A stretch of DNA of 64,000 nt from Struthio camelus (lineage: Eukaryota > Chordata > Aves > Struthioniformes > Struthionidae): NCBI RefSeq assembly GCF_040807025.1, contig NC_090956.1:2406517-2470516 (forward strand), given 5' to 3'. Below are positions 3,501 through 27,582 of the stretch, piece by piece. The position numbers and the translations under genes were made by a program. Each line of letters starts with the position of its first letter. Position 1 is the first letter of the stretch. The notes below the pieces were generated by a model that saw only the letters and a list, made by a program, of their open reading frames with translations, had not been told where the DNA came from and did not search any database.

Positions 3501-6500
3501 AGCTTGGCTGGAATTCTTCTGGAAAATATATTGTTACCTGTGTCTTGCCTGCTGCAGTTATAAAAGCCTTTTCTCTGGCCTGTTTTTCAATAATGAAACT
3601 TCTCTGAGACTGTCCTGATGAACTGAGCTGGGCTCTAGCTGTTTATTAACCACTGGCTCTGAGAAGACTTTTTGTTTCCACTACTCAAACTGACAGATGT
3701 TTGATAAATCCCTGAATCTCTCAGAGTTTCTTGGCTATATCTAGCAAATACATTGTCCAGGAGAGAGAAAATATTTTCCATCCCTATTTCAAATGTTCTG
3801 AGATTTTAGCACTGGATGAGTAATAGTGAGCAATAGATATACATTATTTTCTTAAGCTTGAAATCCAAGTATCTGTTCTGTGTCATTTTCCCATCCTACT
3901 GCCCCTATTCATGGTACTGACAGTTGCTTCTGCTCTTCTGGAATGAAGTTTCGTGTAGCAGGAAGTGATCAAGAAAACTTTAGGATGGAAATCTTCTGTT
4001 TCATTACTAACAGTGTTACAAGGACATAATTCTGGCAGCAGTGGGGTTTTTTTTGTTTTTGTTTTTTGTTTTTTTGCTTTCTTGAAATCTGATCCCTACT
4101 GATTTTTATATTCAGGCCTCCTTCAATGTGGTCAGCTTCTACCTTGAACGAGCTCAGTGGATTGATTCCTGTGTTTGATCACAGCATCTTGCAGAAGATC
4201 CCCAAGGTGGGTTACAAATAGGGAAGTGGGGTGTTTGGGAAGCACTCCTAGTTCCTGCAGTGTGGAAGAAGTATTCTAGATCAGTGGTTCCCAGACTGTG
4301 TTACATGAGGATGACAGGGACTGTTCAGCAGGTAAGTTATCAGCAGTGTCTTCAGTTAAAAGCCTGGTGCCAGGTGATCTACAAAGGATGAGGGTTGGTC
4401 AGGCTAGAAAGCTGGCAACTGCCAATCTAGATCACTGTCGCTTTCTTTAACTATCTGATGAGCACCAGAGGTGGAAAGCAGTGCTAACTATATACGGTGT
4501 TTTTTGGGAGACAGTCATTTCTGGGATGTGGAATATGATAGGGTTTAAGCATTTAAAAATTTGCCTTTAGCTTACCAGGGAAAGGTCTCTAGATTTACAG
4601 CAGGTGGCCTGCTGCCCTTAGTACTTCAACAGTAAGGTTTCTTGTCTATGTGAGTAGGAACTTGTTCTGCAGGTGAAATGCCCAGGATTTGCAAAATCTG
4701 CCTGATGAAAAGTTTTCTTTGCAGAATGTTTTAACCCTTTGGCTGAAAAACTTTGCCTATGATTCATCTCTGTCGAGGGAACAGCTGGCCTCCATCGTCG
4801 AAGAACTCCTGCCTTCTCGGCATAAGCGTGCTGCTGGTATGGGAGCTTTTACTGACCAGTAATGGCAGTGTTCCCTCTGATGTCAGGGTTGGCCCTAGTT
4901 CTTGTGGGGCTCCCTGAACGTGTCTGTCTTGAGCTATGAAACTCTTAGTGGTAGGTTGCCCAGGAGGAGGGCGGAACCATAACTCCACCTTTGTGAATCT
5001 CCAGGAAGGGAACATTCAAAGTTTAAAGCAAAAGAATGTAATGCTGGGCACGTTTGATACTTGCTTCAACAGGATGCCCATCTGACAAGACGATAACACA
5101 AGAAGTTCTTGAGGATGATCTGATGCCTATTTACTATACCCCTGAGGAGTTGCATGCTTGCTTGAAGAATGTCTCTCTGGTGAATCACCTCTCTCAGATA
5201 CTGAGCTACCCCTTCTCTGTTCAGCAATTAGCTGTGCTGAAGAGGAATCTCGATGAGGTAATGGCAGGCTGATGAATGTAGGATTACCTATCAATGAGGT
5301 TTCTCAGCAACTTGTCCAGTTGAGTTTTAGTATCTCCAAGGATGGAGACTCCACCATTTCTCTGGGCTCCTGTTCCAGTGTTTGAGCACCTTTACCGTGA
5401 AAATATTTTTCATAATACCAAAATTTCCCTTGCCTGTTGACCCTCATCCTTTCACTGTGCAGCTCTGAGAAGAGTCTGGCTCCATTCTCCAATATCCCAT
5501 TAGGTAGTTGAAGATAGTGATAAAATCCTCTCCTAGCCTTCTCTTGTTCAGACTGTGCTCCAGCCCCCAAGCATCTTGGCTCTCTGCTAGACTTGCTCCA
5601 GTTTAGGGGAGTTTTTCTTGTGCCGTGGAGCCCAAAACTGGATGTAGTTCCACAGGGTCTCACAAGTGCCAGACAGAGGGGAATATTCACTTCCTTCAAC
5701 CCGCTGGCTGCGCTGTTACTAGTGAAGCCCAGTATTTGATTAGCCTTCACCACTGCAAGGGCACACTGTCAAATCAGGTCCATGTTGAGTCATTTCATGT
5801 TGCTGCAGGTGTCATTCGCTCCCTGGGGTCTGCTTGCCTGGGCTGCCAAGCAGAAAAGGACAGATGCTCGTATATTCTCACTGGCTTTAGTTTATTTTTT
5901 GCTTGCAGACCTTTTATGCTTTTCCACACCAGTTTTGCAAAGAGCATAAATTCATCATCACAGAGATGATAATGAGTGTCCATACCAATAACAACAGTCT
6001 TTCCACAGACATATCCTGATGGGTATCCTGAAAGTCTCCTCCCCAAACTGGGCCCCCTGGCTCCTTTCCTCACCTCTGAGGACATTAGCAAATGGAAGAT
6101 AAGTTCAGCTGACACGCTGGCTGCCTTGCTCCGGGATCAGCCCTCTGACAGAGAGGTGGGTATTTGGGTTTACTTTCCTGCCCATGTTTGCTTCCTGTTT
6201 TGGGAGCTGCTGATTTAGGTCTAGCTTGGTGGGTTAAAGGATGATTGGCCCATCCTTCATGTCCAAACAAATACATTTGAAATGATTTCAATTTTATTTT
6301 AGTAATTATTGCATTTGTTTCTCTTCTGAGGATAAAAACATAAATTCTGGTTCCAGTTAAAAGAAATAAATAAATATGTGCTTTTAGGCTGCTGCAATGA
6401 TAAAACGATATGTTACCTTGGGAAATCGTTTGAACGCCACTGCGCTGAACGCAATTGGTACGAAATATGTGTGCCTTCTAAATGCAACTGAGTTGAACGC

Positions 6501-9500
6501 GATAGACTCCAACAGCTTGAAGTGAGTAAAGTATTGTAGTGCTCCTTCACAGAATCACAGAATGATTGAGGTTGGAAGGGACCTTTGGAGATCATCTAGT
6601 CCAACCCCCCTGCTCAAGCAGGGACCTCTAGAGCACGTTGCCCAGGATCATGCCCAGGCAGGTTTTGAATATCTCCAGCGAAGGAGACTCCACAACCTCT
6701 CTGGGCAACCTGTGCCAGTGCTCAGGCACCCTCACAGTCAACGCGTTTTTCCTCAGGTTCAGATGGAACTTCCTGTGGTTCAGTTTCTGCCCGTTGCCTC
6801 TTGTCCTGTCACTGGGCACCATGAAGAAGAGTTTGGTCCCATCCTCTTGACACCTTCCTATCAAATACCTGTACACAGTGATGAGATCGCCTCTCAGTCT
6901 TCTCTTCTCCAGGCTGAACAGGCCCAGCTCTCTCAGCCTTTCTTCAAGGGAGAGATGCTCCAGTCCCCTCCTCATCTTTGTAGCCCTCTGCTGGACTCTC
7001 TCCAGCAGTGCCATGTCTCTCTTGTACTGGGGAGCCCAGAACTGGACACAGTACTCCAGGTGAGGCCTCCCCAGGGCTGAGTAGAGGGGCAGGAGCACCT
7101 CCCTCCGCCTGCTGGCAGCACTCTTCCTCATGCACCTCAGGATGCCATTGGCCTTCTTGGCCACAAGGGCACACTGCTGGCTCATGTTTAACTTGTTGTC
7201 CACCAACACTCCCAGGTCCTTCTCTGCAGAGCTATTTTCCAGCAGGTCAGCCCCCAGCCTGTCCTGGTGCATGGGATTATTCCTGCCTAGGTGCAGGACC
7301 TTGCACTTGCCTTTGTTGAACTTCATGAGGTTCCTCTCCGCCCAGCTCTCCCGCCTGTCCAGGTCCCTCTGAATGGCAGCAGAGTCTTCTGGTGTGTTAG
7401 CCTCTCCCCCCAGTTTAGTCTCATCAGCAAACTTGCTGAGGGTGCACTCTGTCATTGATGAATACATTGAGCAAGACTGGACCCAGGACTGACCCCTGGG
7501 GGACATTGCTAGCTACTTGCCTCTTTCAAAAGCACCTTCCCATCAGCAAGTGCAGGTTCCTTTTCTGTCCAGCTGGTGAAAGGAAATCTAGGAAGCAACT
7601 TTAGTACCTGTTCCACGTCCAGGTTTAAAAGCCTGCTGTTCTTAGTTCTACGAGGAAGGGCTCAGATTTGCAGTCAAATTTTCTTTAATATACCTCAGCT
7701 GACAATGGTAAAGATGTGTGCGTGTTTTTATCTGTGTGCGAAAGAGTTAATGAAAATTAATTCAGCTTCCTTTGAAAGAGGGCTAAATGAAATTAATTAA
7801 ATATTATATCTTTACAAGCACACAGGCTTGTAATGTGCTATCTGAGCCATGACACCTTATCAGACATACTATTTTCATCAGGAAACTGAGTCATTATTTG
7901 TTCATTTAGCTTTTCTCTGTACCTCATCTATCCACTGGGAAATGCCCAGGATTGTACTGGAGGAGAAGGTAACCTATCCCATGTAGAGAAGCTCAGAGAT
8001 GTTCAAAATGTATTCATATTTCAATTATTTTACTGAAAGCATTAAAATAATAAATAATAAAAACCTTTCTTTCCATAAATCTTCATTTTTCTGCAGAATA
8101 GCATCTCTTGATCCTTCAGCCTGTTCACAGCTTACTAAAGACATCTTGTACCAAAAAGCAAAACGTGCTCTCTCAGACCAGCACAATTCACGTGCTTACT
8201 ATGCTCTCATCAAACCATATCTAGGTAAGTAAAAGAAAAGCATGTTACAGGGAAAGAGATGGGTCTTAGCCAGAAGATGAATTGGGATCCTATGCCTTGT
8301 AAGCTTTGGGAATCTTCAAAGCCAAACTGTTGAAAGTTCAGGAGGGTTTGAATTTTTTCCAGCTTACAGGCACATAAAATATTCTTGAAAGATTCTTAAA
8401 ACCCCCAAAATAGATTGTCAAGCTATCACAGGAAAAATCAAACTTAGGACTTTTGGGGTGGGTAAGATCTGTAAGATACCCTAGTAAATCCAGCTGCTAA
8501 TGCAAGAGTGTTCTCTTTATAGTGTGTTTTTTATGCTTACCTCATAGTCCTTCCCCATGTCACAAAACAAAGATTTTCCATGTTGACCAACAGAGTAGAT
8601 GGGTGGGAGATACTCATTCTAGTGTCTGGCATTGATGCAGGTTGGTTTAATGGCCAACATGATAAGGTTTCCCAGCAAAATGAACTATAGCCTCCATAGT
8701 TTTTTCCAATTAGAACCCACTCTGTTAGGAACCCTAGGCTAATAAACTTTGGAGACATCATGAAAGCATATTTTAGCTCTAGCCTATACAAATACCCAGC
8801 AATCCTCATTTGAGGACTGTCCTTCATATCTTAATATACTTTCTCCTTTTGATCCTAGGGGGCGCTCCTGGTGTGGATCTTGGAGCTCTAAGCAAGGACC
8901 ACGTGAACATGGATATTGAAACTTTCATGAAGTTAAGAAGAGACTCTTTGCTGGTGAGCTGGACCATGAGAGTGTTTCGTTCCATGCATTTGCATCGTGC
9001 TAGCTAGTCATTTCTGGTCACGCTGTCCATTGGTGTAAATCCGCAAATTCAGAATGATGTTGCAACAGTAGAAAGAGGAGGACCAACTTGAAGCTTCTTC
9101 AGAAGATCGGTTTGGAGTCATACAAGGATGCTTGCCCAGCTTTACTGGGGAATTTCCCAAGACCAGGCTCTCATAGACATAGTAGCAGGAAGCAGGATTC
9201 CACTGCGGAATGTGATAATCCTCTGCCTTGCCCCAGTCCAAAGCTGTGTACCAAATCTCCTAACTTAGTGATGGGACTGTTGACAGTCAGGGATATGCTG
9301 CTCTTCTAATACTGTCTGTTTTGGAAGAAAGCCCCATGATCAGGACAGGGACTGTGGCCCCCACTCAGGTGAAGGAGAGGGGTCTTGGGTGAGGATGTAA
9401 GAGAGGGGAAGAACGATGCACTGAGCTGAATTTGGGCAATGCAGTCTCTTGGGAAACAGGAGATGCAGTATTATGGAGCAGCAGCTATGATTCTAGCTTT

Positions 9501-10745
9501 GACCCAGTGTCCTCTAGCATGGCCTTGTCATCAGGACAACAGAAATAAACTTGAGGAATCATGTTCCTTCCTGTAGCCTAAGGCAAGACTGTCCCAACTG
9601 AAACCACTCAGAAGAAGTTTATCTTTCCTGTTCTTAACACTTCTGTTCATAGAAACTTCGCTAAGTCCTTGGTCACAGGTATTATTTCCATTCCTGCACT
9701 TATGTTTCTAAGTTTTGCTTTTTAATTTTTTTGTAGAGCCTGACGCCTACTGAGGTAAAGAGCTTGCTGGGAATGAATCTCAAAGCCCTGACGACTGTAC
9801 AGAACAAGTCACCTATCCGGGAGTGGGTCCAAAAGCAGAAACAGTCCGACCTGGATAAACTGGGTGTTGGGCTCTTTGGGGGAACACAGGAAGGTTATAT
9901 CAATTTTGTCACACCCAAGTTTCAGAGTACGTAGTATATGAGGTTTTCTGATTGTCATGCTTTAAATATGTATTTTGGGGGTCACAGCAAGGAGAAAAAC
10001 TACCTTAGGGAAGTGAGGTGTTTTCAGTCATCTGTATAAGGGAACTGAATGCACCCAGCTGACATAGCCCCCTGGGAACCAGAGTCAGTCACACCCGTGC
10101 TCAAGCAGGCGGTTGCATTGAGCAGCTCTGCCATAAAGCTCTAGTCCTGCTCTTGGCCATGCTTGTGCCAAGACCTTGAAAAGTCCTGCTGGCCACTCCT
10201 TTTTCAGAGGGAGCAGAAACTGTGGCTCTTGACTGCTGCAGACCCCTCGAGTGGCACTCATCACTGCACATCCACCCAGCCCCACTGAAATGCACTGAGT
10301 AGCGCTTTGTGCCTCCCTTCACCTCCTGGCTTCAAGGGGCGGCAGATTCAGTTCTGCTGAGGAACCTTGAGCCTTGCAGCACACTCTGGGTCCAAGAAAA
10401 GAGGCAATTCTGTAATCCCACTGGGAACATCCTCGCTATCTGAACATCTCAGCTGAGTGAGCATTTCCACAGCATACTGCTACCACGTGTGTCGGATTTG
10501 GGATGTGACTGGGAGATCCTATTAGGGATGGATATTTTGTGGTCAGAAAGCCAAAGATCTTCCCTGAATGTGGAGCGATGGGATAGTCTCCTCCATGGGG
10601 GAATGGTTCAATTGCTGGGTTCTTTGCGCTGATGCCCCCTCTTTTTCCTCTAGCACCATCCTCAGCTCCCCTGGGTGCCGTGGCCATGGTCTTCCACCTG
10701 CCTGCTCTCCTTCTCAGTTTCCTGATGGTTTTGGTCTTGTCTTGA
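515..10745 (+). CDS. MSLN: Mesothelin (GPI-anchored), 3' part, 15 exons
   Basis: Mesothelin is a GPI-anchored cell-surface glycoprotein. Its precursor is cut by furin into a soluble N-terminal fragment and membrane-bound mesothelin; the family is predicted to fold as a helical-repeat superhelix. Exons: 515-661, 817-866, 1725-1845, 2175-2260, 2876-3005, 3140-3330, 4116-4206, 4725-4836, 5073-5257, 6009-6155, 6388-6521, 8097-8224, 8859-8953, 9737-9926, 10654-10745. They join in one frame to 632 residues plus TGA; the 5' end is off the window. RHKR in exon 4725-4836 is a furin-type site, followed by a GCPSDK segment that matches the start of mature human mesothelin as I recall it. Later landmarks are [12 protein letters not shown] and LGVGLFGG. 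The last exon encodes a small-residue segment, then a hydrophobic run to the stop, typical of a GPI signal. I chose the donor at 9927 (GTACGT) because it joins that exon in frame; reading on would stop at 9932-9934. Confidence 0.92.
5305..5790 (-). mobile_element. CR1 LINE fragment, old and diverged
   Basis: The sequence aligns by eye to the better copy at 6548-7520, in the same antisense orientation. Shared landmarks are the segment beginning 'tatctccaaggatggagac', a 'gagcccaaaactgga' segment and 'caagggcacactg'. Many substitutions and small gaps separate the two, so this is an older insertion. It lies in the MSLN intron between exons 5073-5257 and 6009-6155 and does not touch the splice sites. 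Confidence 0.85.
6548..7520 (-). mobile_element. CR1 LINE, 5'-truncated, with long open frame
   Basis: CR1 is the dominant avian non-LTR retrotransposon. On the minus strand the element runs from about 7520 to 6548 and ends in two copies of the octamer ATTCTGTG (plus-strand CACAGAAT at 6548-6555 and 6556-6563), the typical CR1 3' end. A 292-codon open frame (7506 to 6628) encodes the C-terminal part of the reverse transcriptase, with landmarks such as [23 protein letters not shown] and [12 protein letters not shown]. The endonuclease and the N-terminal half of the polymerase are missing, so the copy cannot move by itself. The long stop-free frame suggests a fairly young insertion. It sits in the intron after MSLN exon 6388-6521, 26 bp past the donor. 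Confidence 0.95.
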
Positions 10746-11173: not shown

Positions 11174-11211
<38 letters not shown>

Positions 11212-13752
11212 TGGAATTGAGTAAACAATGGCAGAAGCAAAACGATGAGTGGCTGTTGTCTTCTCTTCACTCACATAGCCCATTGCTTAGTGTCTGCAAG
11301 TACTGGACAAAATTAAATGGTCAGGAACCTCAGACCTGCCTGTTACTTTTCTTTGGAGCTGACTGTTTAAGCCTAAGGGCTGAAGCTGTTTTCAGCATCT
11401 TTATGGGGAAGGTATAAGGACTCTGTGTAATATTTTCAGCAGAATTTTTCTGCTCATTAGGAAACCCTGTTCAAAAAAGCTTTAGTGCAAACTACTTTGT
11501 CAGAATCCAGCCTCTGAAATCCCCTTTTTTCCCTGAGAGGAGAGCTTGCCTGCAAAGACATTATAAATGTTCATTTAAGCCATGGTTTTCAGAAAGAGCA
11601 GAGATTGGTCTGTCCTTCATCGCTGACTTCTGGGTGGCTGGTGACAGTTCCCCACAGCCTGTATCCAAACTTCTCTGATGGAAGGAAATTTAACTCCAGC
11701 AGTCAAAGAAACGCTGATGGCTGCAGGGCCTGACTAGTTAGAAGTCAATACTGCAGTGCTGGGGCAGTAGCTAGGGTGGGAGATAGCCCAATATAAGTAA
11801 GGCAGTCTGCATTTTTAGCAATATTTCCCAACGTTTGGTTCCCCTGATGGAGATCTTGATTTGTTTCTTTGTTCCTTGACTCTCTCTCAACAAGTGGCAT
11901 AAAGAATCTGCTCAGCCCATGAAGCATGAAACCAGGAAAGTGGGGGATCTGCAAGCAGGAGGGAGAAACGCTTGTAGGAGAGCTACTAGAAAAGGAGATC
12001 CTAGATAATTAAAGAAACTCAGAAGTGGAAACTATTTAAATTTAACTTAACCAGAAAAAAACGACAATACAAAGCACTAAACACATCAAAAAACATCTGT
12101 GATTAAGAAAAAGGAAAAAAAACTTTGATTGATGTTTTTATTATATAGCACTGCAACAGTAATCAGTATGCACTGTCTTCAATTAGTCTTCCCTCTAACT
12201 AGGCTTGGCATAGTGTGAACAAATCCTGATCCAAAGTCTCGTAAGTTCATAAAGCAAGTTAAATGCAATTCAGTGGATTTCTGATCGAGCTTTCACATTC
12301 TGTTGCTGGGCCATATTCTGCTTCTCTTGCAATGGCCAGTAACTTAGGTCCCTGAATAGTCCCACTGGTTTCAACAGATCCCAGTGGGATTGCTTAGGAA
12401 GTACAATACCGCTCAATCTGAGTAAAGCTAGCACAACTGGGTCTGCTGTCAGCATTAATGCGGTGCCAGACCAATCAGTGTTACTGATAATTGTATTATA
12501 TAGAACAGCTAGCTAGTAAACACTTTTTTTTTTTTCTTGGATCTCATCCTGAATTACAAAATAGACTCGGGGATTTAATGTGAATAAGATCCTGCAGTAC
12601 TTATGGTAGGATTGCTCTCCACCAGGTAAAAGACTCCTGAGTGATGAAAAGGTCTTAATTATTGTAACAGGAACCTAGAACCTGTAATCATATTGCTTTA
12701 TTTTTAGTTGGGCTTTTTTGGCCTGGAAAAATACCTGTCCTTTCTTCACATCCTAGCTTAAATAATAAACAAATTCCCTGTTGGTCTAAAATTGACAAAC
12801 TTCATTCCTCTCCTAGCTTTCTGCCTTTCAGCAGGGAATTTGCCAGCACCAATATTTTGGAGGATGGCGAAAATTAAAGGAGGGATCCAGTGAGTGTGAG
12901 CCTGGAGATGGTGTTGTCAAAGAAGTCCTTGAAACAGTGAGATTCCCATGGCTGCAGTGAGTACATGCAGTAAACAAAAGGAGAGCCTGGATCCTGAGCC
13001 TAGATGGAGAACAGAGATGAGAATGAATTGGATTATCCAGGTAAACAGCACAGCTAGATGTGGGCTCATGAGGGGCTGTTACAGTCATAGAGTTACTTTG
13101 GGATTTGGGAACCCCAGAGGATTGCACATCTAGAAGGTCGACTGGTTTCTGTCTTTTGTGACATTGCCCATACCCTGCACCTTTAGACACTGACCTGCAC
13201 CCCGCTTATAAATATGAACCAGAAATGAATAGTCAGGAGCACTGAGTCATCTCTTAATCACGCTAGCATAAAGCAGCGTAATAATTCATTAAAGCTACTG
13301 GTGTAGCTCTACCGAGATAGAGGACTTCAGATTTTAGGGCTTTTATAATGACACCTATTCAAAAACACTGTATGCAGCTAAAATATGGAAGGCCATATCC
13401 TCACCTTGTGAAAGACGGCACAGTACCATCGGCAATAACAGAATTATACCAGCTTCTCCCCATAGTGGATGAGGGGAAGTCATATGTTCAGAACTGGTTA
13501 AGACATGTGAAGGTGCACCTTGTTGCCTTTGCAGAGCGCACGGTATCTGAAGGCAGTGCACTCTAGATCATGTAGTGCTAAAATGGCCTGTAGAGATGTT
13601 ACTACCTGACTTGTCAGTAGCTGTATGGAGTTTCTTACGGACAGCAGCGCATCAGTACTGAATCTGGCTAGGAAAGGGTGAATCAGCTACTGCTTTTCAA
13701 TAAAGACTTTTGCCTTGGGATTGGTTCCTAAGGCTTTCCCGATTCGTCACAT
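10746..13752. other. Tail-to-tail interval between MSLN and MSLNL
   Basis: This interval should hold the 3' UTRs of both converging genes. Plus-strand poly(A) candidates for MSLN are ATTAAA 11312-11317, AATAAA 12764-12769 and AATAAA 13699-13704. Minus-strand candidates for MSLNL are 12702-12697 and 12142-12137. A run of 32 A lies at 11178-11209. I searched the minus strand for a hydrophobic GPI-type exon that could extend MSLNL and found none that convinced me. No other gene is recognised. Confidence 0.5.
11178..11209 (+). repeat. Poly(A) run, 32 bases
   Basis: This is an uninterrupted run of A in the region 3' of MSLN. No recognisable retrotransposon body precedes it, so it may be a microsatellite or the remnant of a retrotransposed tail. 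Confidence 0.9.
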
Positions 13753-14655
13753 TCACACCTTACCAGCCTCAGGATGCAGATTGATGTATCCGACGGGTGT
13801 TGGATTCTGTGGCTCTGGCACGTCTGTAGGTGTTTTCCTAGTGGTCTCACTGCTGGTCGTTGTGGAAGAGGGGATGAGAAACGCTGCAGGAGCACCGCTC
13901 CTGCAAATGAATGTTGTCGTCTTGACAGTTGAGGAGATGACACTCTTTTGGGTGGAGATGGAGGTTCTGGGAATCGGGGTGGGCTTGTGGGGAATGATGT
14001 TTGTTTCTGTGGTGACAGTGGGTGCAGAGGTGGTGTTAGGGGCAAGGGCACTAAGAGCATTGCGGGTGCTCAGAATGGTATTGTGAGTAGTAGCAGCTGG
14101 GCTGGCAGTAGCCCCAGGGACTGGAGAGTTAATGGACCCTGTTGGGGTGCTGGTTTTATGGGTGGTAACAGCCAGGTTAATAACAGCACTGGAAGTAGTA
14201 GTGGCATTGTGTGTGAGAGCAGAGGATGGGGGGGAGCTGGGAGAGGTAGCGCTGGGGTTGACAGCAGTAAGGATGGTGGCGAGGAGGGCGGTAGTTGTGG
14301 AGATGGCCTTCTTTGAGGTGGCAGACTGGTGGATAGAGCATGGGTTGGTGGAGCTGGGGGTCAGAGCAGGTCGGGCTGTGAGTCTGGAGGTGACAGCGGG
14401 ACTCCCGCCAGCACTGGGGAGGGTCATGTGAGTGTGTAGAGGAGTGCTGTTAGATACGGTCAGGCTGATAGCGCTTGGGGTGGGGGGCTTGTGGGTGCCA
14501 GTACTTGAACTAGCAGTGGTGTGACTGTTAATGCTGCCAGGGGTGGTGACAGTGGGGAGGATGGTGGGGGTGAGGACAGCAGTCGTGGGGGCAATACTGG
14601 CTGAGGGGATGATGCCAGCAGGGGTGGCAGACCCCGTGGAGCTGGGCTTCACCAT
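13753..14655 (-). other. Mucin-like Ser/Thr/Pro-rich domain of MSLNL
   Basis: This part of the last exon encodes residues 994-1293. The peptide is dominated by Ser, Thr, Pro and Ala, as in segments like TTAVLTPTILPTVTTPGS, with no exact tandem repeat unit, so it resembles a degenerate mucin domain open to dense O-glycosylation. Sequons include NST, NAT and NTT. In MSLN the equivalent exon stops shortly after the LFGG motif and splices to a GPI-signal exon. Here the frame reads on through what would otherwise be intron. The bias toward T/S/P/A codons over 300 codons without a stop argues for real coding sequence. Confidence 0.8.
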
Positions 14656-17600
14656 CCCCCCTTGCAGGCCAATTCCCAGGGTATGGTCCAGCTCCCACTG
14701 GTCCTGTCTCTTGATCCAGCTGATCACAGAAGGGTAATTTTCTGCTTGCTTCAGATCAGGGAGGTTTACCCCAAGCAAATTTTTCACATCCATGACAGTG
14801 AGTTTCTGCAATACATTTACAACAACATCTTTGTTCATCCTCACAGCTGGCATCACCAAAAGGTACTTTTCTAGTGGGACTGCAGCTTGAGCAATTACTT
14901 TCAAAAAGAAGGAAAAACAGAGATTTGTTGATCTGACAGGGCAGTAGCCTTGAACCCCACAGCTCAGCAGTTGACTAGCCCTTCTCTTCAGCAGGGAAAA
15001 CAGCAACAGTGCACCAGGGAACGTACCTGCAGTTCCTCAGGATTTAGGGCAGTAAAGGTGTTGATGTCCATGGCAATACCAGTTTTAGCCAAGTCTTTCA
15101 GGTCCTTTGCTGGAGCTCCACCTTAAAGAAAGCACATAGGGCACCTAGACACAGGCAGATGTGGTAACACTTCCAAAGCTCAGAGACAGGTTTTGGTGAC
15201 TCTTAGACGTGTCTCAAGTTCGTTTAAAACCCTCCGGTAGAGGAAGAAGTAGCCATGCCTCAGGCACCATGGGGAAGGAGGGCAGAAGCTGAAACACCTA
15301 CCTAAATACGGCTGAATCAGGCAATAATATGCTTTGGTGCCAACCTGGCCAGCAAAGGCCTCCTGGGCTTTTATGTAGAGTTGGTCCTTTTTGGCTTGAG
15401 AACAAGAAGAAATGTCTAATTGTCCAGCGCTCCTGGGGAAAGGGAAGGTCACAGATTAGAGCTGGGGACACTACCCCAAATGACAGCAAAAGCCCTTCTG
15501 TGTGCTCAGACCAGTGCTGTTGCGGGGCGGTGATCTCCTGCTGACTGCCTGTGGCTCTTGCGGCTGACAGCACCTCTGTGGCCCCTGGCAGAGCCCTCCC
15601 CCGCAGCTCCCTGCTGCTGAACCAGCAGCTTGCATTTATCTGTCATTTTTGCATTGTCTTTTTTCTTGCCATATTTCAAAAATGGCTTGCCCAGCTATGA
15701 GTGATTGCCTGAGCAGGTGAAGTGATTTGTCCCCCGCCCACTGTATCCATGGATCTTGCCATCAACCTGTGTGGTGGGTCCAAGGAGCGGAGTGGGGTGC
15801 TGGGGCTAACTTTTGCCCAGGTGTGCTGACGTGTGAGGGACAGGGTCCAAGGGGTCTGGGAGCGTGGGCTGTGGCAAAGCCTGGGACAGAGGTGGGAGTC
15901 TGCTGTTCTACCCTCTTCCCCTGCAAAGCCAGGGGCCTTAGGGTTTGCAAGTAGCCTTAAAAGTGGTTTACCCAATTGCTTCTGGAGTTACTTTACTAAT
16001 TTGATCCTCAGCCAGGTTACACAGGTTTCTGCCACCGATTTTCTGAAGCAAGGGCCCAGTTAAGGTGCCCCCTAGATCCAAATATCTGGTGATCAGATGC
16101 TGGGCCTGGAAAATACAATTCAAAAGGTTGAACGTATTCAGACAAATCCTTGTACAAATGCTGTTTGCAGCACAACAAAAGCAGTCATGGCAAACTTGAG
16201 CAAAGCCTTTGCTAAAGGGCTAGCAGGAATGGAGAGGAAGATCTCCTTCAAGGCTGTGCAGCAAATCTGAGCTCATCAATGAAATCAAACACTTACCCAA
16301 TGATACCCCACTCAGATTTCCAGACTAGGTGATGGGCCAGGCCTGCAGGGTTTTTTGTGCCATGCACTGAGACTGAATGGTCTCGTTGCTCCCCCCTCCA
16401 CACAGCTGTGGTGGGCTCTCACACACTTGTGTAGCCTGATGCCAGGGCCCTTTCCCATGCCTATGCCCAGGCCTGCTTGCTGAACGTGTCCAGCCTTGCC
16501 CCATGAGCTCCCTGTCAGGGCACTCAGGACATTTTCACCTCATGTAAGAGGAGCACTTGCAGCATCTGCAAATCCTCCGGGAGAATTAGTGAGGCTCTTG
16601 TTTTCCCTAAGGCCTGCCCATGTTCTGGGTTCGTTTGGGATCCGTTCCTTGGTGCTAGGTCCGTTATTGCTGTGGGAGCCTGTGCCATTCCCTGACAGTG
16701 GTGGTTGCCGTGTCCACCTCTTGACCCTTTTACCTCAGGAGCTTTCCACTTGCCGGCCGTGGGGTCGAGCAGGGCTGAGAGGGTGTCACTGGATGTCACC
16801 CTCCACATGCTGATCTCCTCTGTGGTGTACTGGTGGGACAACTGCCCAAACAGCTTTAACTGGTCCTCCGGGATCCCCTCCGGGTAAATCTGAAAGGTCA
16901 GGCTAGCTTATCAGATAAAGAGGGTCACAGAATGGAGGACACCTCTCTTTGTGTCTAAAGTAATGTATGAAGTGCTCTTCGTACCCCAAGGCGCGTTCCA
17001 GTGGCTTAAAGAGTAACGCGAAACCCACAAGCAATCTGTTTTCCCCTTTTATTGCAGACACAACACCTGAGATCTCCATCCCCCTTTTACGGTTAGCCTC
17101 ATGCTCCTGTGTCCTCTGGCTCTTTGTGATCTCTTTAACTTGACACTTGACAGCAGACCCCTGGCGCTCTGGGTACGGCAAAACGCCAGCCATAAACAAC
17201 CTCTTAGACCTGCGCACAAAGTACGTGCTGGAGGACACCAGTGTCTTCAGACTTTCTTAGCAAAGACTAACTTGTCCACATTCTACCTTGTTTTTCTCAG
17301 TCACTCTTTTCCCCATTATTTTCGCCACCCTGTCTTGCTTTTCTCTCCCAGCCATACCTGCTCTCAGGTCCCGAACTTCAGGGTTTTGAGTGCTTGGCAA
17401 GGCAGAAATGTGCATTATCCCTCAACTGTCCATTAAGTCATTCCTCCCAAGTATGCGCTGAGTTTCTCCCCCACTATGATCAGTCCCAGTGCTGCCCATT
17501 CCCTGCAGACTAATCTCTCCTTTTCAATAGCGTGGCTATATTAACTTTAGGCTCAGCTGAAGGATCCTGCTTTATTTCCCTCTGTTCATTACCTCCTTGA

Positions 17601-20600
17601 TTTTTTTTTTCATGACATGAAGATACTCCACAGTGAGAGGCTGCTCCAGCAGAGGTGCCAGATTTGCTTTTAAAACCTCATTACTCAGGCACAGATCAAA
17701 CTGCTCGATGGTGTCGTAGTTGATGAGGAAGAGGGGGTCTGAGATGGTGCTGGCAACAATGGGTGCGGACAGGCAGTCTGGAGAAGCCAGGCAGGGAAGG
17801 GGGTGTTAGAGAGATGGCAGTTTCCTTCCTGCCTGCCTGCCAATGAGCCTATTAAGGGATCTTGGAGTCCCTCAGAAAAGGCATATTGAATTAATAGGAA
17901 ATTATAGCAATGCTGTTGAAATGATCTTGTGGCGGGGGGGAGTTAGAATTAGTTTCCCATCCTCCGATTTTCTTCTTCTCCCCAGGGACCCCTTTCTTTT
18001 GAGAGAGAGACAGAGGCCGAGGTGCCCAGTAGCATGTCGGGCATGAGTCTCCCCAACTTACATTTTTTGCCCCGAGAGCTTTAAGTGACTGAACTTATCC
18101 AGACCTGTCACTGCTAATGAAGATACTTACGTTTTGTGCTCCGCTTAGTTCTGCGACGAGACGAAGAAGACGCTGTTGCAAAGGCTTTTAGGAGGGTCAC
18201 AGATGTCTCTCTCTGGGAGACACCTTGGCTGTGGTACTCAGCAGCGATGCTCCTGCAGAAAGCCTTCCTCACTTCCTGAGGAGAGGAAAGGCAAAAAGGG
18301 TTCCTGGGCCCCCCATGGCATCTCAGGACAAAACGAGCAATTACCCCAAGACCTGACAGCCACATGGCACAAGAGATGCAAGCAGGGCCAGCGTATCAGC
18401 TGCAGGCTAGTTCATAAGGCAGGAAAGGAGATGGATGCTGGGCAAAAGAAGGGTGAAGTGCAGGAGAGAAAAGCTAGGTCCAAGAGGATCTGCGGCTCAC
18501 AGGAGGCTGAGAGCAAAGGACACAGTTCATAGCTAATCCGTTACACATCCCAGCCACTGTCACACACACTGAAGGGTGAATGTGCCTGAGGTCTTGAAAG
18601 GGAGAGCTTACTTCAGCCACTGAGGTCAAAATTGTCTGGTTCAAACTCAGCACAAGTGGCCCCAGACTTTGCAGACTCCTTAAATCCCAGGACAAAGGAT
18701 ACCTGCGGTCGATGGGACAAGGCAGAGCTTAGCTTCCTCACAGATGCAACATTGTTGACCATCACCCACCCGTAAGTAAAGGCGGAGGCCCCTTACCCAT
18801 ACCCCGTGGCACCCCTGAGGAGTATGGCATTGAGGGCAGCTTGCTGGGCCCCGGACAATGCTGGGCAGAGCTTCAGGTTCTCCAGGACACCGGGGTCCGA
18901 GGCTGTGATGGTCTCTGGCTCCATGTCACACACCAGGGCACCAAGGCTGCCAAGCTGCTCTGGACTCAGGCCACTGCTGTTCACTCCCTGGGGAGAGGCC
19001 GAGACAACCATTCCTACAAATGCCCAGCTCACGACATGTCAGATACTTGGTCTGACTCAGTGTGGTTCTCATAACCGCCTCCTGAGCAGAGCTTGTAGCT
19101 CAGCTCCAACTTACCAAGCACGCTAGTGCCCCGTGCAGGAGCTGTGTCCTTTGGGTCGAGCCTTTTGGCAACAAGTTAAGATTCCCTTGAGAAGCCAGAG
19201 CATAAAATGCTTTGCAAGTGTGGTTGTGTACGCTGGCGAAGCTAGGAGGAATGAGATGCACCATGACTGGGAGGAAGTTTCCTGAGAATGGGGCAAAGAG
19301 CCGGGGGCATTCTGTGTGTGTATCTTGTCAAGGAGGGTCATTTTAAAAGGGAAACTTCACTCTCTCAGTGAACTGTTGAATAGCATGAAACAAACTCCCC
19401 AGCTTGGCCCAAGCTAGGGGGATCTCCTCTGCTCTGTGTTCCTCTCCCATCCTGGAGAGGACATGTCAGACAGTGGTGAGAAGTTATCAGACCCCACGCT
19501 CTCCCTTTGGCTGCACTGTGGCCAGATTGGCATTCGCAAATAGTCTGTGTTTTTGGGCCCCTTGGGTGTTGGGGAGAAGCAGGGTGAGGAGAGGTCCAGG
19601 AGAGGTCTGCAGTGCAAGCAAGAGAGAGGGCTGGAAATACCCTGATATATTAGGTCTGAAGGTGTCTATCGAAACAGGCAGTTTTCCTAAGTTTCTCCTA
19701 TATACAGCTCCTGCCCGCCCCAAGGTGTGACTGGGCTGGGCTATAGTCAACGCTTGCAAGTGTGCTTGTAATTTGTTTGTTGGAGTGATTCTGCACCAAA
19801 AACATGACCTTGTGCCATCCTTAGATACTCACTCAAAGAAGAGCAGCACGTCTGGTGGGTAGCCAGTGAAGTTGGCTGTCAGGTTCTTTGCGGCAAGTAG
19901 TTTGGCCAGGCAGGATAACTGAGGTAAAAAAAATAGGCAGAGGGCAAATATTTTTCATAATAACGGTGATGAGATGAGAGGCACTGGCCTTTGTATGGTC
20001 TGTTGGCTTGCAGGAAAGTAGGCCCAGATAGCAGGCCTGATGTTGTGCCTGGACAGGTCTCAGTTAAGAAAGTGGCTGCAAACCCATCCTTTTAGGACAA
20101 CGTCTTGGTGCAAGACGCTTGGGAGAGCAGTGAGAGCTTCATGCCTGTGGCCCAGGCCTTTTGCCTATGAACTCGCAGCTTTCCTTCAGGATTTGTTGTC
20201 AGCTCACCAGTAATTCATGAGGCAGGAACGGCCTCATTTACACAAGCAGTCCCTGCCCACCATGCTTTCTGCATACCAGCTCTCAAATGCCTACCTGAGG
20301 GCTGCTCAGCACAACTCTTTTGTTTTGCATTTCTTTGACAAGCGACAGGATCTCAGCAGCTGACAGATCGCTGGCCAAGGAGCACTGGAAGCCTTGTAGG
20401 ACTGAGGCTGAAAGGCTGTGTTGGGGAGGCAGATTAGCATTTCACTCTCCATTTCAGTTACCCCCTTCCATGCAGTGGCTGCAGGACGAGCCTGCTCTTT
20501 CCCTAGGGAAATTCCTATTCCCTCAATCCACAGCTGATGGTTTGCCTAGCATTGAAGTGCTATATGGCTGTAGGTGGACATGACCTGTGGGTTGTGCAAA

Positions 20601-23600
20601 AAGGTACTGTAACCCCAGTGCTGTCTTGATGGCAAAGGAGGTGTCCTTCAGGCTAGAGGCCCCCTAGCCCCGTGGCTTGGGAGGAGGTCATGGTGTTGTT
20701 CTCGGTCACACTGCTTGCATCCCAGCTGACGGGGTTGCACAGGGGCAGTTGCTAATGAGAGAGTGAAGGCTGGAGGTGCCTGGGTTAGCCCTGGCTTTGG
20801 CTGTGAAGGAAACCAGCTGAGCCTGGATTTTGACTCATGGGAGGCTCCTGTTAAGTTGGTGTCAGCCCTTTAAAGGGCAGGAAGTTCTTTATGTGTTTGT
20901 GCTACAACAAAAGGTGATGCAGCTGAAAACTTGAACTGCACTCTGGTACCCAGAACCTGCTGTGCAAGGCTTTAAATCTTCTCTAACCCAGCTGGCCTGT
21001 CACAGTGGGCCATGACGCATGCACAAAGAAATTCAATATCCACCCATGCAAGGCATCTCCGTCTGCTCACCCCAAGACCTTGCACTTCTGAAAAGCTGGT
21101 GCGTGGTACTTACTCGGAGTATCGATTGGTGGCAGACAGAACAGCTCCGAACAACACGGCAGCCTGGGGAGGAGGACACACAAATGCTCAGCCACAGCAA
21201 GTTACAAACCTTTCAGGGTTGGTCTAAGCCTGGGGAGATGGGCTAAGAGAGTGTGAGGTCCTCGTGAGCCCCATGGGTCTGCGATTATGGGAGAGATGTA
21301 CAACAGGAGTGGCTCCCAATTCTCTAAGACCGGCCAAGTCTAAAACCCTCCCGAGGACGCATGCAAGACCCTGAAGGAGACCGTATAAAAGCACTGGGGA
21401 AAGAAGAGGGAAGATGAGCTTTTAAACTGATGGACCAGGCTGGGATCTGAGCAAAAATATATAGGTTGGGAATGGGATTTCTAACCTTCAGAGGAGTGAA
21501 ATTTGGAAAGAGTTTATCCTTAAGAGAAGTGATGAGAACTTGTTTTTAAACTGGAGCTTGCTAGGTTTGTGAAAAGAGTGATATTTTGTGCCTGCTTGTA
21601 ATAAGAGTGTATGGGTCTTGGGGGCAAAGAAAACCTTCCCAGTCTATCGCCCCAGAATACCCTGAGCTTTTCATCCCAACTATCATACCAAAAGGCATTA
21701 CACACGGTGGGCTCCCCTGTCTAAGACAGAGGCCTCTCTTCCTGTTCCTGACCCACGTCACCCTCGTGGCGCCCAGCGGGCTTGCGAGCCACAGTGTCAC
21801 CTGCTCCGGGGACCAGTGTTTCTTGCTGATCCCGCTGAGATCTGGGCCCTGGATGGGAGAGGTCAGCCGCAAGCCTGGAACCTGGTCGGCCAAGTGGTCA
21901 GGAACGCGCATTAAGACGTCACCAAGAGACGAGGCACTGGAGATGAGCTGAGGAAGGGAACGAGAGACCTGCCAGAGCACATCTCCGCATGCCTCTGGGA
22001 CCTGCCTGAAGAGCTCAGCACGTGCTGCTGGCAGCAGGGGGAGAGGAGGGCAGAAACTGTGCTAGACCCCTGGGTGAATCGGCCACTCCAACGTAACATG
22101 TAGTTTGTCGGCTAGGATCCTCAGACTCTGCAGCCCTGCTCCCATGCAATAGCAGTTTGCTCTGCATTTTGAGGATTTGGGGTGAATTCAGACATTTTGG
22201 TTTCTCCTCAATGCTCAGCCTTTGGAGGATAGGAAATAAGGCAGGTTCTCACGTGGAAGGGCTTGTTACCTTGTCCACAAAAGCTCTCTTTAAATAGCCC
22301 GGAGCCTTCTGCATGGCCCTGTGGAAACCTTCATCGCGGGACATTTCCAGCGCTGCCTCTGCGGGAATGTCACGGACGACATGGCTGGGCAGGCCCCGCA
22401 CCAGCGTTCCCAGGCGTCGGAGCACCTCCGCTGTGGTGAACTGCAGCGAGAGCAGCACGCCCGCTCGTAACGCTTAGCTCAGCTCAGCCACCTCCCGAAA
22501 CGTTCCCTGGGCCCTTTCCCATGCGTGAAATCACTTAACATGTGCAATTAAACTACAAGGCACAGGCGCAGCTGTGGCCCTTGCGCCCATACAGTCAGGC
22601 AACAAATTCTTACCGTGAAGTTGCTGCTGATTAATTTGTTTATCAGTGCCTCGGCTTGCCCCTGGTTCCAGCCTGTGACTTGCCCCAGCAATTGCAGGGT
22701 CGATGGCTCTCCGACGCTCTCGGCTCTCAGCTGCGATATCTGGCTGGCGGTCAGCCCCACGGCTTGCTGCCCCAGTGCAGCCAGCGCGTTGGAGTCGAAG
22801 GAAGGGCTCTGGGTGACAAGCATAGCTGCAAGCTGCAAGGAACAATGAGCAAAGGATGATGATTAATGACAATGGCTGAAAAATGGCTAAGGTGGCCTGA
22901 AAGTGCAGCAGGAAGCTCTGCCGAGAAATAATCCTGCTCATGAGCGTTCAGTTTTCCTAGCTGACTTTTGGGACCCTCTAGGTCTTTCAGGGAGCAGATT
23001 GGGGCAGTTACTTTAGCCTAGCACCAGGCAGGTGGCAGCTCCCTGAATTCATAGGCAACTTTGGGAAGCTGAAGAAATCCTAAAAGTAAAATAAAGTAAA
23101 AGATTTCCTTAGGCAAAGCTGAAATAAATCCCTGGGATTTGGACCATTTGTTGAGGTTCCTTCAACATAGTTTCACTTTGAACATGTCTAGAGGAAGCAC
23201 CTAGACCATCTTAGCTTCTTTTAGCTCCTTTTCCTAAAGGAATAACTTGGTAAAAGCTGTTGCATTGTTTGGATATCACTCAGTCTGCTGGGTTTTCTCC
23301 TGGTTCTGCTTTCTCCCTCTCTAAAGACTGAAAGAAAGCAGCTGGCTCAGATCCTGGACTGCCCTGACATGCCAAGGGGCAGGTTTGGCTGCCCCAAATA
23401 CAGATGCCAAGTCAAATTCGGACTGGGCTCGGGGGAGCCCAGCTTTGGGGCAGGCGGGCGGTGTGGGCTGCCGAGCAGCGCTGCTCCTGGGCTCACCTGG
23501 CGGGCAGGCGCTGAGGGCTCGAGGGGGCCCTGGGCGCCCAGGGGGCCGCAGCGGAGGTTTATCCAGGCGATGATGCCAAGGGAAGCGGCCGTGCTGAGGC

Positions 23601-26600
23601 GGGGAACAGCAGCCAAGCACCTTGCCAAGCAGAGGAGCTGCTCTGGGAGCCTGCGGGGCCAGAGACGGGAAAGTCGTGTTAGAAGGGATGTATATATATG
23701 AGCGCATCCCCCGTAGGAAGTCCGGAAAGGATGCTGCTACGGAGTATTACAGATAGAACCAATTAACATTTCTTCTTCTTTTTTTTTCCCGGCCAAGGAA
23801 TGATCTTTTTCCAAAACTGAGCGTCACATCGTTCATGTTTTCTAAAACGTTATGCTTTTAACCCACATCTCCCAAGCAAATGGAAACATTAAACATGCAG
23901 AGCTATCCTTTTTGTAGGTTTTAACCATCTTTCTGTTTTCTCCTCTTCCAGTAGCAAAACTGAATAAGGGAAAAGGGGAAAGGATAAAAGCATAGAGGAA
24001 GCCAGGTAAAAGTATATGTTGTTGAAGAAGAAAATTTCAAAATTTATCCCAAGGTAAGAAAACAGTCTAAATATTTTTACTAGCGAACCCCACGTTGGCT
24101 CTGCCACATAGGCATTTATATATGCTGCCATAGGTTTAAGCGAAGGACACACGTTATTGAACTGAGCGCGAGGCAGCCCTGCCGGGAGCTGCAGGGAACA
24201 GGGGGAGCGATCCTGCCCCTTGGGCCGGGGCCCATCTCACTCACGCGGAAGGGCTGCTGTTGGCCTCCTGGGCGAACGCGGAGCCGGCGAGGAGCTCGGC
24301 CAGAGCCGGGGGGACCCTGGCGAGGTGGCGGCGGCGGCGGCGCAGGGTGGCCGCGTCTCCCACCAGGTGCCGGAGCTAGGAAGGAGAAGGGGGCTGCTCG
24401 GTGCGGGGCCGTCCGGGGGCCGTGCCGGTGGCCATGCCGCGGCGAAGCAGCTGTGTCCCGGCAGGGCTTGCGGCCCTGCTGCCCCATGCCAGGCGCCTTG
24501 TTGCCGTTTCTCTCCCAGACACGGTGCGGAAGGGAGAGAGGGTGCAGGGAAGGGACACGAGAGTGGCCAGAAAAATGAAGCTGGATGTGGATTATTTGTT
24601 GTAAAGATCTTTCTCTTTTCTATAAGGAAATAACCAGCTAAATGTCATGAAGGCAGAAGAGTTTAGGGGGATTTCAGACAGCGCCAAGCAGCCAGGCTGT
24701 TTTCTGGCAGAAGAAGCGAGACCTGCGTGACTCCCATAGAACAAGCCTGAATTCACGCCGCCCAGCATGGGCGCATGCTGCAGGGCGAGAGGAGGCAGCC
24801 GCGCTCAGCGGGCGTACGTACGACCCTGGCGTTGCTCTGCGGGAGCACCCTGACGTCCTCGGTGCCGTTGTGGCGGATGCGACGCCCCAGGTAAGCGGCA
24901 AACCAGTCTGCTGTGCCTGGGCCGCTGGCGCTGGGCTGCTGCGGCTTGGCCGGAGCTGCTGCGTGAGAAACGGCAGAGCCGTCACCACAAGGCTTCCCGG
25001 GGGCTCGGCCCTGCGCTGCAAGGCGCGGAGCTCTGCCCGCGGTCGGGCACGTGCCGGCAGTGCCACAGGGCGGCTCGTGTCGGACGAGGCTCTGTGCCGA
25101 GCCGGGCGCTGGCGCTCACCGCGGAGATGGGCTCCGATGGAGGTGCAGAGGGCGCGTGTGCTGCTCTGGAGGGCTGGGGGGCTGAGGCTCGGCACCCCCA
25201 CGCTGCAGGGCACAGAGAGCCGGGGTCAGGGCTGGGAGTGGAGGAGTCTCGCCCCGTCCCAACACGCAAGGGATGGGAGTGCAAAATACATCGTTAAGGA
25301 GCTAGAATCACTTTTTTTTTTTTTTTTTTAAAAAAACTCTGACCGCTCCAGAGGGACAATTAATTGGAACCTCTGATTGCTTTGCAGGGCCAGGGCAACT
25401 CACATCTTGCAGAAAGCCGTGCAACTCGCGTCGAGGAGCTCGTAGGAGCTCAGGACGTGGCGGGATCGCTGCAGCCTGCTGGCTGCAAGCCAGGCGTCCA
25501 CCGTGCTCTCATCAGCCCCACCAGGGAGACGGGCCTGGATGGAGAGACGACAGGGGATCAGCGGTGCCGAGCCCTTGCCAAACCTTGCTGGTGCCATTGG
25601 ACAACCCAGAATATCTCTTCCCTACAATGCCCACAGCCTCCCGCATTTTATAGGGTCCTTTTGGCACCTGCTGCTCCAGCAACTAAGCTCAGCAAAAATG
25701 CAGAATCAAGTGGAGCTAAGACACACACATTTGACCTACCGTAGTGCTCGGCTGAGCAATAAGGTACCCTTTCCTTTTGAAATTCCTCACAAGCGTTGTC
25801 AGGACGGTGTCATTCCTGTGGGGGTCAGAGCTGGCCAGCAGGTGAACTAGCGCAGCAGAGTCCTTGGTGTCCAGAAGGAAGAGAAAACAAAACATTATGA
25901 TAGAGAAGGCAAAAAATAGTAAAGAGGAGGAGCTTCCTCTTGCAGTTGGGGTGGGATTTTTGGTCACTGCAGAGCACATAACGCGTAGGCTTTGAAGTTG
26001 CAAAGTTCTCCCTTCCCACTCCTTACTGGAGGTGCCTGGATATATTCCTAAAAATGCCTCTGACTTATAAAGACAAACCAAGGGGAAACTGTAAAGGGTA
26101 TTTCCCACATTTAGCAAATGTAGGGCTTAGACTAAAATAGAAAAACATCTCCTATTCTGAGTCACGTACTATTTGTCTGAGCTCTGGGATAGAGATTAGA
26201 AAGGGACTAAAGGGGACACCCAAGCAGATTCAATCCATTGCATTTAAGGTGACTTGGTCCTAGAGCAGGCATTATGCTGGTCTGTACACCATTCGCTATG
26301 ATCGTTCTTAATATTAACGCAGACTTGCTGAGATCTCCTTTCTCCTTCCCAGACCCAGGGCTGGTTTTCTGGCTGGGGCAGCCCTGAATGGCTCTGCCCT
26401 GCATGGGGGGAGGCAATGCTGCTGTGACAGCCCTGGCTGGTGCTCTCGGACAGGCACGGCCACAGTGCTGCCGCCCGGCAAGCCGCAGCTGCTGCAGGCC
26501 GCTGAGCAATATTTACAGCAGCCCTGAGGCTGCTCGAAGCTATGCTCAGATGCAGAAGCCACCACAGTCAGTCTCAAGAGTGGGGACCCTTCAAAGGTTG

Positions 26601-27582
26601 GGTGCATTCATCTTTCCCTTCTTTCCAGGTGCTAGATTGGTTGGAAGTTGATCAGGGATCAGGGCAGCCCTGGTGACAGAGTGCCGTGTGTGCCTGTGCC
26701 ACGGCCGTGCGAGTGCTCAGCCCCGGATTCGCCCCACAACGTGGTGCCGCTCTCCAAGGGGGGCAGCTGAGAGACAGACATAGGTGTCGCTCTTCAGATG
26801 CTGCCACAGTCGTGATGTCTTCACCATTCAGAGCAGGCTTCCCCGGAAGACATCTGCCAGGGCAGAGACCCGCAGGGACTGCCGCAGTTCCTGCCACTTT
26901 CGGCACGAGCTGCGACGTCCTGCTGCCGGTGCTGTTTGTAAACTGTCTTAGTAGCTATTTAAATAACCCACAGTGACTTACTGATGCTGCTTTCACAAAG
27001 TCTGTTGAAAGTCCTGCAACGAAGCAAAATCATGTTATAAAATATCTCTTCCTCTATATACTTGTGAATAGGGCTCTGTTCTATAGCATCTCCCCATTAA
27101 AAGTCTAGGAAAGATCTTTTCTCTGTCAATTTGATAATGTTTAGTAAATGCAGAGATTCAAAAATAAATATGTAGAGGTTCAAAAGAGCAGATATTATAA
27201 CCACCCTGCAACCTCCATTTGGCCCTGATAACCAGGACTTCATCTATGGATGGGTTTAAAAGACGGTGAAAAAATCTGCCCCCAGAAGAGTGTGTTTGTG
27301 CAGGAAATTTCTAATGCAGTGCTCACTGCAGGCTTGAAAAACCTCCCACAAATTTGTAATGCTAATGGTGGCATGAGGCAGAGCTCCCTTAAGCCAAAAT
27401 GATGTGGATTTGTCAATGAAAAGCCACAGTGACCTGGGGCTGTGCTGAATTGCTCACGAGTTAAATGGGTGTCCTGGGGCAGCTCACCCGGGGGTCAAGG
27501 CACAGGCCAGGTTTTGAGGGGAAACAAGTAACTCACGGAGGCAGAGGACGAAGGTGGCCAGGACCTGGGCTGCCTGGGTCAT
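13753..27582 (-). CDS. MSLNL: Mesothelin-like protein with mucin-like C-terminus, 24 exons
   Basis: A secreted or cell-surface mesothelin-family glycoprotein. Exons in order: 27582-27537, 27013-26982, 25862-25740, 25534-25404, 25202-25120, 24907-24822, 24375-24245, 23650-23497, 22832-22614, 22440-22270, 21947-21801, 21163-21114, 20415-20295, 19918-19833, 19241-19115, 18987-18803, 18702-18612, 18275-18131, 17777-17593, 16889-16734, 16105-15972, 15432-15302, 15121-15027, 14805-13753. Phases agree throughout, giving 3882 bp and 1293 residues. Exon 1 encodes a short hydrophobic signal peptide (MTQAAQVLATFVLCL). A furin-type RTKR lies at about residue 705. Exons 11-23 match MSLN exon for exon. The last exon encodes about 50 core residues (to LGIGLQGG), then 300 residues rich in Ser, Thr and Pro with some N-glycosylation sequons. 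The stop follows a donor-like GTAAGG, so a further 3' exon is possible. The symbol rests on synteny with human 16p13.3. Confidence 0.9.
25312..25336 (+). repeat. T18/A7 homopolymer run
   Basis: Eighteen T followed directly by seven A, in an MSLNL intron between exons 25534-25404 and 25202-25120. It is a low-complexity run with no associated element body. Confidence 0.85.

Follow-up and report, generated by a model that had tools for sequence, protein, structure and literature searches.

Does the ostrich mesothelin paralogue MSLNL end in a mucin-like tail, or does it carry a mucin-like block inside the protein, ahead of a membrane anchor? The question is raised by 64,000 nucleotides of the Struthio camelus genome (contig NC_090956.1, positions 2,406,517 to 2,470,516; the window, whose own numbering is used throughout), in which MSLNL occupies the minus strand and MSLN the plus strand, the two genes standing tail-to-tail. 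A sequence-only reading had taken the last MSLNL exon to stay open beyond a conserved LGIGLQGG core and to end the protein in a tail rich in Ser, Thr, Pro and Ala. The answer turns on what that stretch is made of, on what lies 3' of it and on where the exon is spliced.

The two mesothelin-family genes

The MSLNL model (12917..27582, minus strand) consists of 25 coding exons with GT/AG borders, which join into a single open frame of 1336 residues starting with MTQAAQVLATFVLCL, signal-peptide-like by eye. Residues 457-1012 match the Pfam Mesothelin family (PF06060) with 321.3 bits, against a curated cut-off of 25.8 (E 1.4e-95). The N-terminal part, residues 1-456 (21801-27582, minus strand), is without a Pfam match, yet in the model its exons join into an open frame. 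In human, the boundary between MPF and mesothelin is the position of a dibasic furin-type motif. Exon 18 of MSLNL (18131..18275, minus strand) holds a furin-type site, RRRTKR followed by S, its class judged from the motif; the dibasic motif is kept in the matching exon 8 of MSLN (4725-4836, plus strand) as RHKR.

MSLNL exon 24 (13764..14805, minus strand; 1042 nt, entered in phase 0 and left in phase 1) contains, in order, the end of the mesothelin head, the mucin-like block and the sequence GYINLHPEA; its residues 1-51 match PF06060 (E 4.5e-08). Its acceptor has been set at 14805 because phase and homology place it there, and they contradict a start further upstream in the open frame. This acceptor scores 3.12, the weakest scored apart from that of an exon 11 wrongly begun at 22013 (-11.57), for which 21947 is now taken. 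A plus-strand reading of 13603-14805 is on the wrong strand and interrupted by stops. As predicted from sequence alone, the gene structure is fairly well supported.

MSLN, the comparator, is partial (531..10745, plus strand): 15 of its exons are in the window and its first exons must precede it. It matches PF06060 with an E value of 1.1e-147. Other Pfam matches on it fall below the curated cut-offs: those to DUF3712 (on a piece) and CTD6 are taken as chance, and one to Stereocilin, a related family (E 0.0021), has been set aside. Exon 14 (9737..9926, plus strand; 190 nt, likewise entered in phase 0 and left in phase 1) is the counterpart of MSLNL exon 24 without the block, and exon 15 (10654..10745, plus strand) is GPI-signal-like. 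A LINE fragment (6526-7512), CR1-like in appearance, lies inside an MSLN intron; it has a minus-strand ORF at 6628..7512 and a Pfam RVT_1 match of only E 0.086. A run of 32 A (11178-11209) lies between the two genes. Elsewhere in the window, an ORF at 34857-35519 (minus strand), for which no Pfam match was found, resembles what we presume, from human gene order, to be RPUSD1; if it is, the locus is syntenic with human 16p13.3.

Composition of the block

The minus-strand frame is open from 15036 down to a stop at 13755..13753. The first codon after LGIGLQGG begins at 14655, so that the limits given for the open stretch in the sequence-only reading, 14655 and 13753, are exact; this Ser/Thr/Pro/Ala-rich stretch is real. 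The mucin-like block proper (MVKPSSTG...QNPTPV; 13792..14655, minus strand) amounts to 288 codons inserted in frame inside exon 24. It is 22.2% Thr, 16.7% Ser, 12.8% Pro and 11.1% Ala, with 112 Ser/Thr, 37 Pro and two Cys. Ser, Thr and Pro together account for 149 of the 288 residues, only two of which are aromatic and 19 charged, a composition of the mucin (PTS) type. Ser plus Thr comes to 38.9%, against 15.3% in the preceding 1012 residues, and the two parts do not overlap when counted per 100 residues (a minimum of 36 in the block, a maximum of 26 upstream of it). N-glycosylation sequons number three in the block and nine upstream.

Dinucleotide-preserving shuffles left the block's frame open in 11 of 20,000 cases, with a mean of 6.5 stops, and none of the 20,000 reached the observed fraction of Ser plus Thr (shuffle mean 22.2%, sd 2.2). 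C occupies codon position 2 at a frequency of 0.549, for which the shuffle maximum is 0.514. The other two minus-strand frames across the block have 5 and 10 stops. The first 36 kb of the window hold 95 stop-to-stop ORFs of at least 90 codons; because three others among these have 226, 228 and 294 codons (the last in a LINE-like fragment), the open frame by itself is weak evidence, and the case for the block rests on its composition and its position.

Tandem repeats are common, though not obligatory, in mucin-type (PTS) domains. The block has none that could be found, and its best lag identity was equalled by 677 of 1000 shuffles; a tandem-repeat origin is rejected accordingly. VWD/CysD domains or a SEA domain are features of gel-forming or classical membrane mucins; neither has a Pfam match in the block, in exon 24 or in the first 1012 residues of MSLNL. 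Pfam and PDB searches of the block itself gave no match up to E 1. A Melittin match on exon 24 (E 0.1, or 0.021 and 0.027 when shorter pieces are searched) is below the curated cut-off and is put down to chance. A pattern search for relatives in viral and genome contig collections gave 8 and 46 matches, none of them confirmed, which is to be expected because these collections contain no birds. The block is most likely a real and unusual domain in a known protein family.

Exon 24 and what follows it

The block does not reach the end of the exon. Directly 3' of it lies GYINLHPEA (13765..13791, minus strand), the old exon end, which matches GYINFVTPK of MSLN exon 14; when the two exons are aligned with MAFFT, GYIN stands opposite GYIN across the gap, and its Tyr is the only one after LGIGLQGG. 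Without the membrane-proximal part the alignment to Pfam Mesothelin ends at profile position 583 with 68.2 bits. When TPVGYINLHPEA and exon 25 are added and only the last three of the 288 block residues (TPV) are retained, the other 285 being omitted, the match reaches 592 and 78.6 bits, a gain of 10.4, which none of eight controls with the 12 residues TPVGYINLHPEA shuffled came near (67.5-69.2 bits). The exons differ by 852 nt (1042 as against 190), or 284 codons, and both are of phase 0/1. Both phases are common to 14 of the 15 possible exon pairs (MSLNL 12-25 with MSLN 2-15), the exception being MSLNL 11 and MSLN 1 (5' phase 0 as against 1); this agreement is not fully independent, because the exon borders were placed with the paralogue in view and for the last two exons of MSLN the phases follow by arithmetic from those borders.

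By these comparisons the block is most likely an in-frame internal expansion between position 583 of the Pfam Mesothelin profile and the stretch matched to 592. An extension of the exon into former intron sequence, as the sequence-only reading had proposed, is not supported, because the conserved exon end, GYIN... with its phase-1 donor, lies downstream of the block. The block is thus most likely located inside the protein, between folded head and membrane anchor, and is probably not the protein's end.

The splice donor of exon 24, gtaagg after CTG (13758..13763, minus strand), is upstream of the in-frame stop at 13753..13755 (minus strand) that had been taken for the end of the gene. In leave-one-out scoring the donor at 13764 reaches 7.82, more than 26 of the other 37 donors in the two models, and the stop, 3' of this good donor, is most likely intronic. 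Downstream, in continuing phase 1, is the candidate exon 25 (12917..12999, minus strand), whose 27 residues plus stop, GSGSRLSFCLLHVLTAAMGISLFQGLL, resemble a GPI signal. Its acceptor at 12999 has a leave-one-out score of 10.09 (10.69 after the exon-11 correction), above 31 of the 38 other model acceptors. The last 20 residues have a mean hydropathy of 1.81 and no charge; the MSLN ending has 2.29. The PF06060 match stops at position 592 of 624, and exon 25 itself is therefore unmatched. A possible poly(A) signal, AATAAA (12697..12702, minus strand), lies 215 nt past the exon-25 stop; going from 13750 towards 10800, the minus strand has no earlier AATAAA or ATTAAA.

How common such endings are can be gauged from the 9763 AG sites on both strands of the window. 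A GPI-like end was defined as 15-60 residues in phase 1 with the last 20 hydrophobic (mean at least 1.0) and uncharged, and 3 of the 270 sites that reach an acceptor score of 8 give one, by thresholds fixed with the candidate already known and a score matrix that includes MSLN's acceptor. The three are the GPI exon of MSLN, candidate exon 25 and an MSLNL intron site at 18506. The predicted GPI-signal exon 25 most likely follows exon 24, which would remove the supposed contrast with MSLN: each of the two exons closes with GYIN... and is most likely joined, in a shared phase, to a GPI-signal exon. Use of an alternative phase-1 donor at 13851 (score 5.38) would retain most of the block but lose its end and GYINLHPEA; such an isoform is possible.

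Three other accounts of the exon have to be set against this splice. Exon 24 might be the last exon; the protein would then stop at 13753 and be a secreted one that ends in a mucin-like tail, possibly an intron-retention isoform. The frame is indeed open to that point, and a mesothelin-like protein appears in quail seminal foam in the excerpted text of one report (PMC12853081), but a good donor, just preceded by the family's exon end, comes before the stop, a GPI-like exon follows in phase and the first AATAAA or ATTAAA comes only at 12702, past that exon. We regard this as unlikely. What the sequence-only reading had seen in kind, a mucin-like block (by composition) in a mesothelin paralogue that would be a glycosylated stalk, stands. 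A stalk ahead of a GPI signal is more likely than its secreted tail; the competition with mesothelin-mucin adhesion that it also suggested would be no more than a possibility.

Less likely still is a splice from 13764 to some other exon further on, by which the protein would be secreted or anchored in another way. The 22 acceptor-like sites of score at least 6 from 14700 to 10800 include 13663 (7.34, with the ending DSVLMRCCP) and 12000 (6.55, with a weaker hydrophobic ending), and two, 12548 (11.02) and 11948 (11.01, DPPLSWFHASWAEQILYATC), outscore the candidate. However, in phase these last two leave 1 and 20 residues, respectively, before a stop and no hydrophobic end; the ending from 12000 averages only 0.76 in hydropathy and contains one charged residue; and the ending from 12999, with its score of 10.09, is, besides that of MSLN, the sole uncharged hydrophobic C-terminus among the endings measured.

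It is very improbable that the block is untranslated, as an unrecognised or retained intron within exon 24 that is open by chance: four acceptor-like sites lie inside it (14600, 14383, 14006 and 13900; 6.05-7.10, in the range of used acceptors), MSLN is without such a block and the window has a few other long open frames, but no donor-like site scoring at least 4 occurs between 14700 and 13852 (35 of the 38 modelled donors attain that score), and so few shuffles stay open, none at the block's Ser/Thr content.

Proposed architecture and occurrence in birds

What the sequence suggests is probably a GPI-anchored surface protein of the mesothelin family, its head mounted on an O-glycosylated Ser/Thr/Pro-rich stalk (~288 residues) inserted in frame. 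The insertion would separate LGIGLQGG, the last helical segment of the head, from the membrane-proximal GYINLHPEA, which would lead via a phase-1 intron to the GPI-signal exon. Cleavage of the precursor at RRRTKR, as in mesothelin, would separate an N-terminal fragment from the mature part (from RRRTKR to the end of LGIGLQGG is 287 residues), and the C-terminal hydrophobic peptide, judged by hydropathy, would be exchanged for a GPI anchor. The block, judged by its composition and 112 Ser/Thr, may be densely O-glycosylated, which would hold it extended; at the ~0.25 nm per residue of an extended glycosylated chain, the stalk would be roughly 70 nm long. A bottlebrush spacer of this kind would raise the 287-residue head over the glycocalyx of mucosal epithelium and would offer a release point for a shed form, although soluble occurrence, as in seminal foam, would fit a secreted form too.

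Several known systems help to place this arrangement. Residues 26-285 of a 298-residue query from the MSLNL head align to 8fsl_E, a solved human mesothelin chain, as far as LGLGLQGG, with an E value of 1.9e-45; the MUC16-binding part of mesothelin, we assume, includes the region of the first 25 query residues, outside that alignment. In human mesothelin IPNGYL comes directly after LGLGLQGG and in the window's MSLN TQEGYINF takes that place, whereas ~288 residues intervene in MSLNL. MSLNL is like this MSLN in its furin-type motif, its matching exon phases and its GPI-signal-like last exon. The nearest working model for the architecture is a GPI-anchored receptor of the CD55/DAF type, with a folded head, an O-glycosylated Ser/Thr-rich stalk and a GPI signal; the stalk of CD55 is much shorter than the MSLNL block and its head is unrelated. 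MUC16 and other membrane mucins have a Ser/Thr/Pro-rich domain like the block, but the block, unlike theirs, is without tandem repeats and without a Pfam match.

The mesothelin head binds a mucin in trans in mammals. MSLNL might be a mesothelin relative turned mucin, the head of which would bind mucin-type chains in cis or on neighbours, cross-linking the glycocalyx without MUC16 at the surface of bird mucosal and reproductive epithelium; we attach little probability to this suggestion. Otoancorin and stereocilin, of mesothelin's family and compared here by description only, are described as GPI-anchored in an excerpt of one paper (PMC2628672), which suggests that they interact with the inner ear's acellular gel, rich in glycoproteins, and in that excerpt names no mucin-like block for them.

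Reports on birds, in the excerpts at hand, place the protein in a variety of settings. Chicken MSLNL is associated with the oesophagus and is said to lack a human homologue (PMC12665336); contrary to this, a human MPF-like protein is listed in the excerpt already referred to (PMC2628672). MSLNL is found in vesicles of chicken tracheal organ cultures (PMC8780788), is among the top regulated genes of infected duck spleen (table value 6.14; PMC11123779), is more abundant in the seminal foam of quail stressed early in life (PMC12853081) and ranks among the top 10 genes in a comparison of heavy with light lines of quail (PMC4587967). Eggshell entries for bird mesothelins read 'Mesothelin (MSLNL)' in ostrich (PMC5039028) and 'similar to mesothelin' in zebra finch (PMC4666066). 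('MSLNL' in PMC9313125 stands for MSLN-low and is a false match.) These reports fit an epithelial, surface or shed protein; their excerpts make no mention of the block. Nor is a mucin-like block in MSLNL described in the titles and abstract openings among the literature matches listed. Predicted bird MSLNL proteins perhaps already contain it, unremarked.

Mesothelin, a protein of unclear normal role, is a major target in tumours. Should our reading prove wrong, the locus is still a gene-model case in which an apparent protein end is an exon that continues. The built-in mucin-like spacer predicted for MSLNL would show one way of remodelling the family's membrane-proximal part, and would make the protein a natural test of the effect of the head's height over the glycocalyx. 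An oesophagus-associated, vesicle-borne and seminal-foam gene of birds would thereby acquire a concrete architecture.
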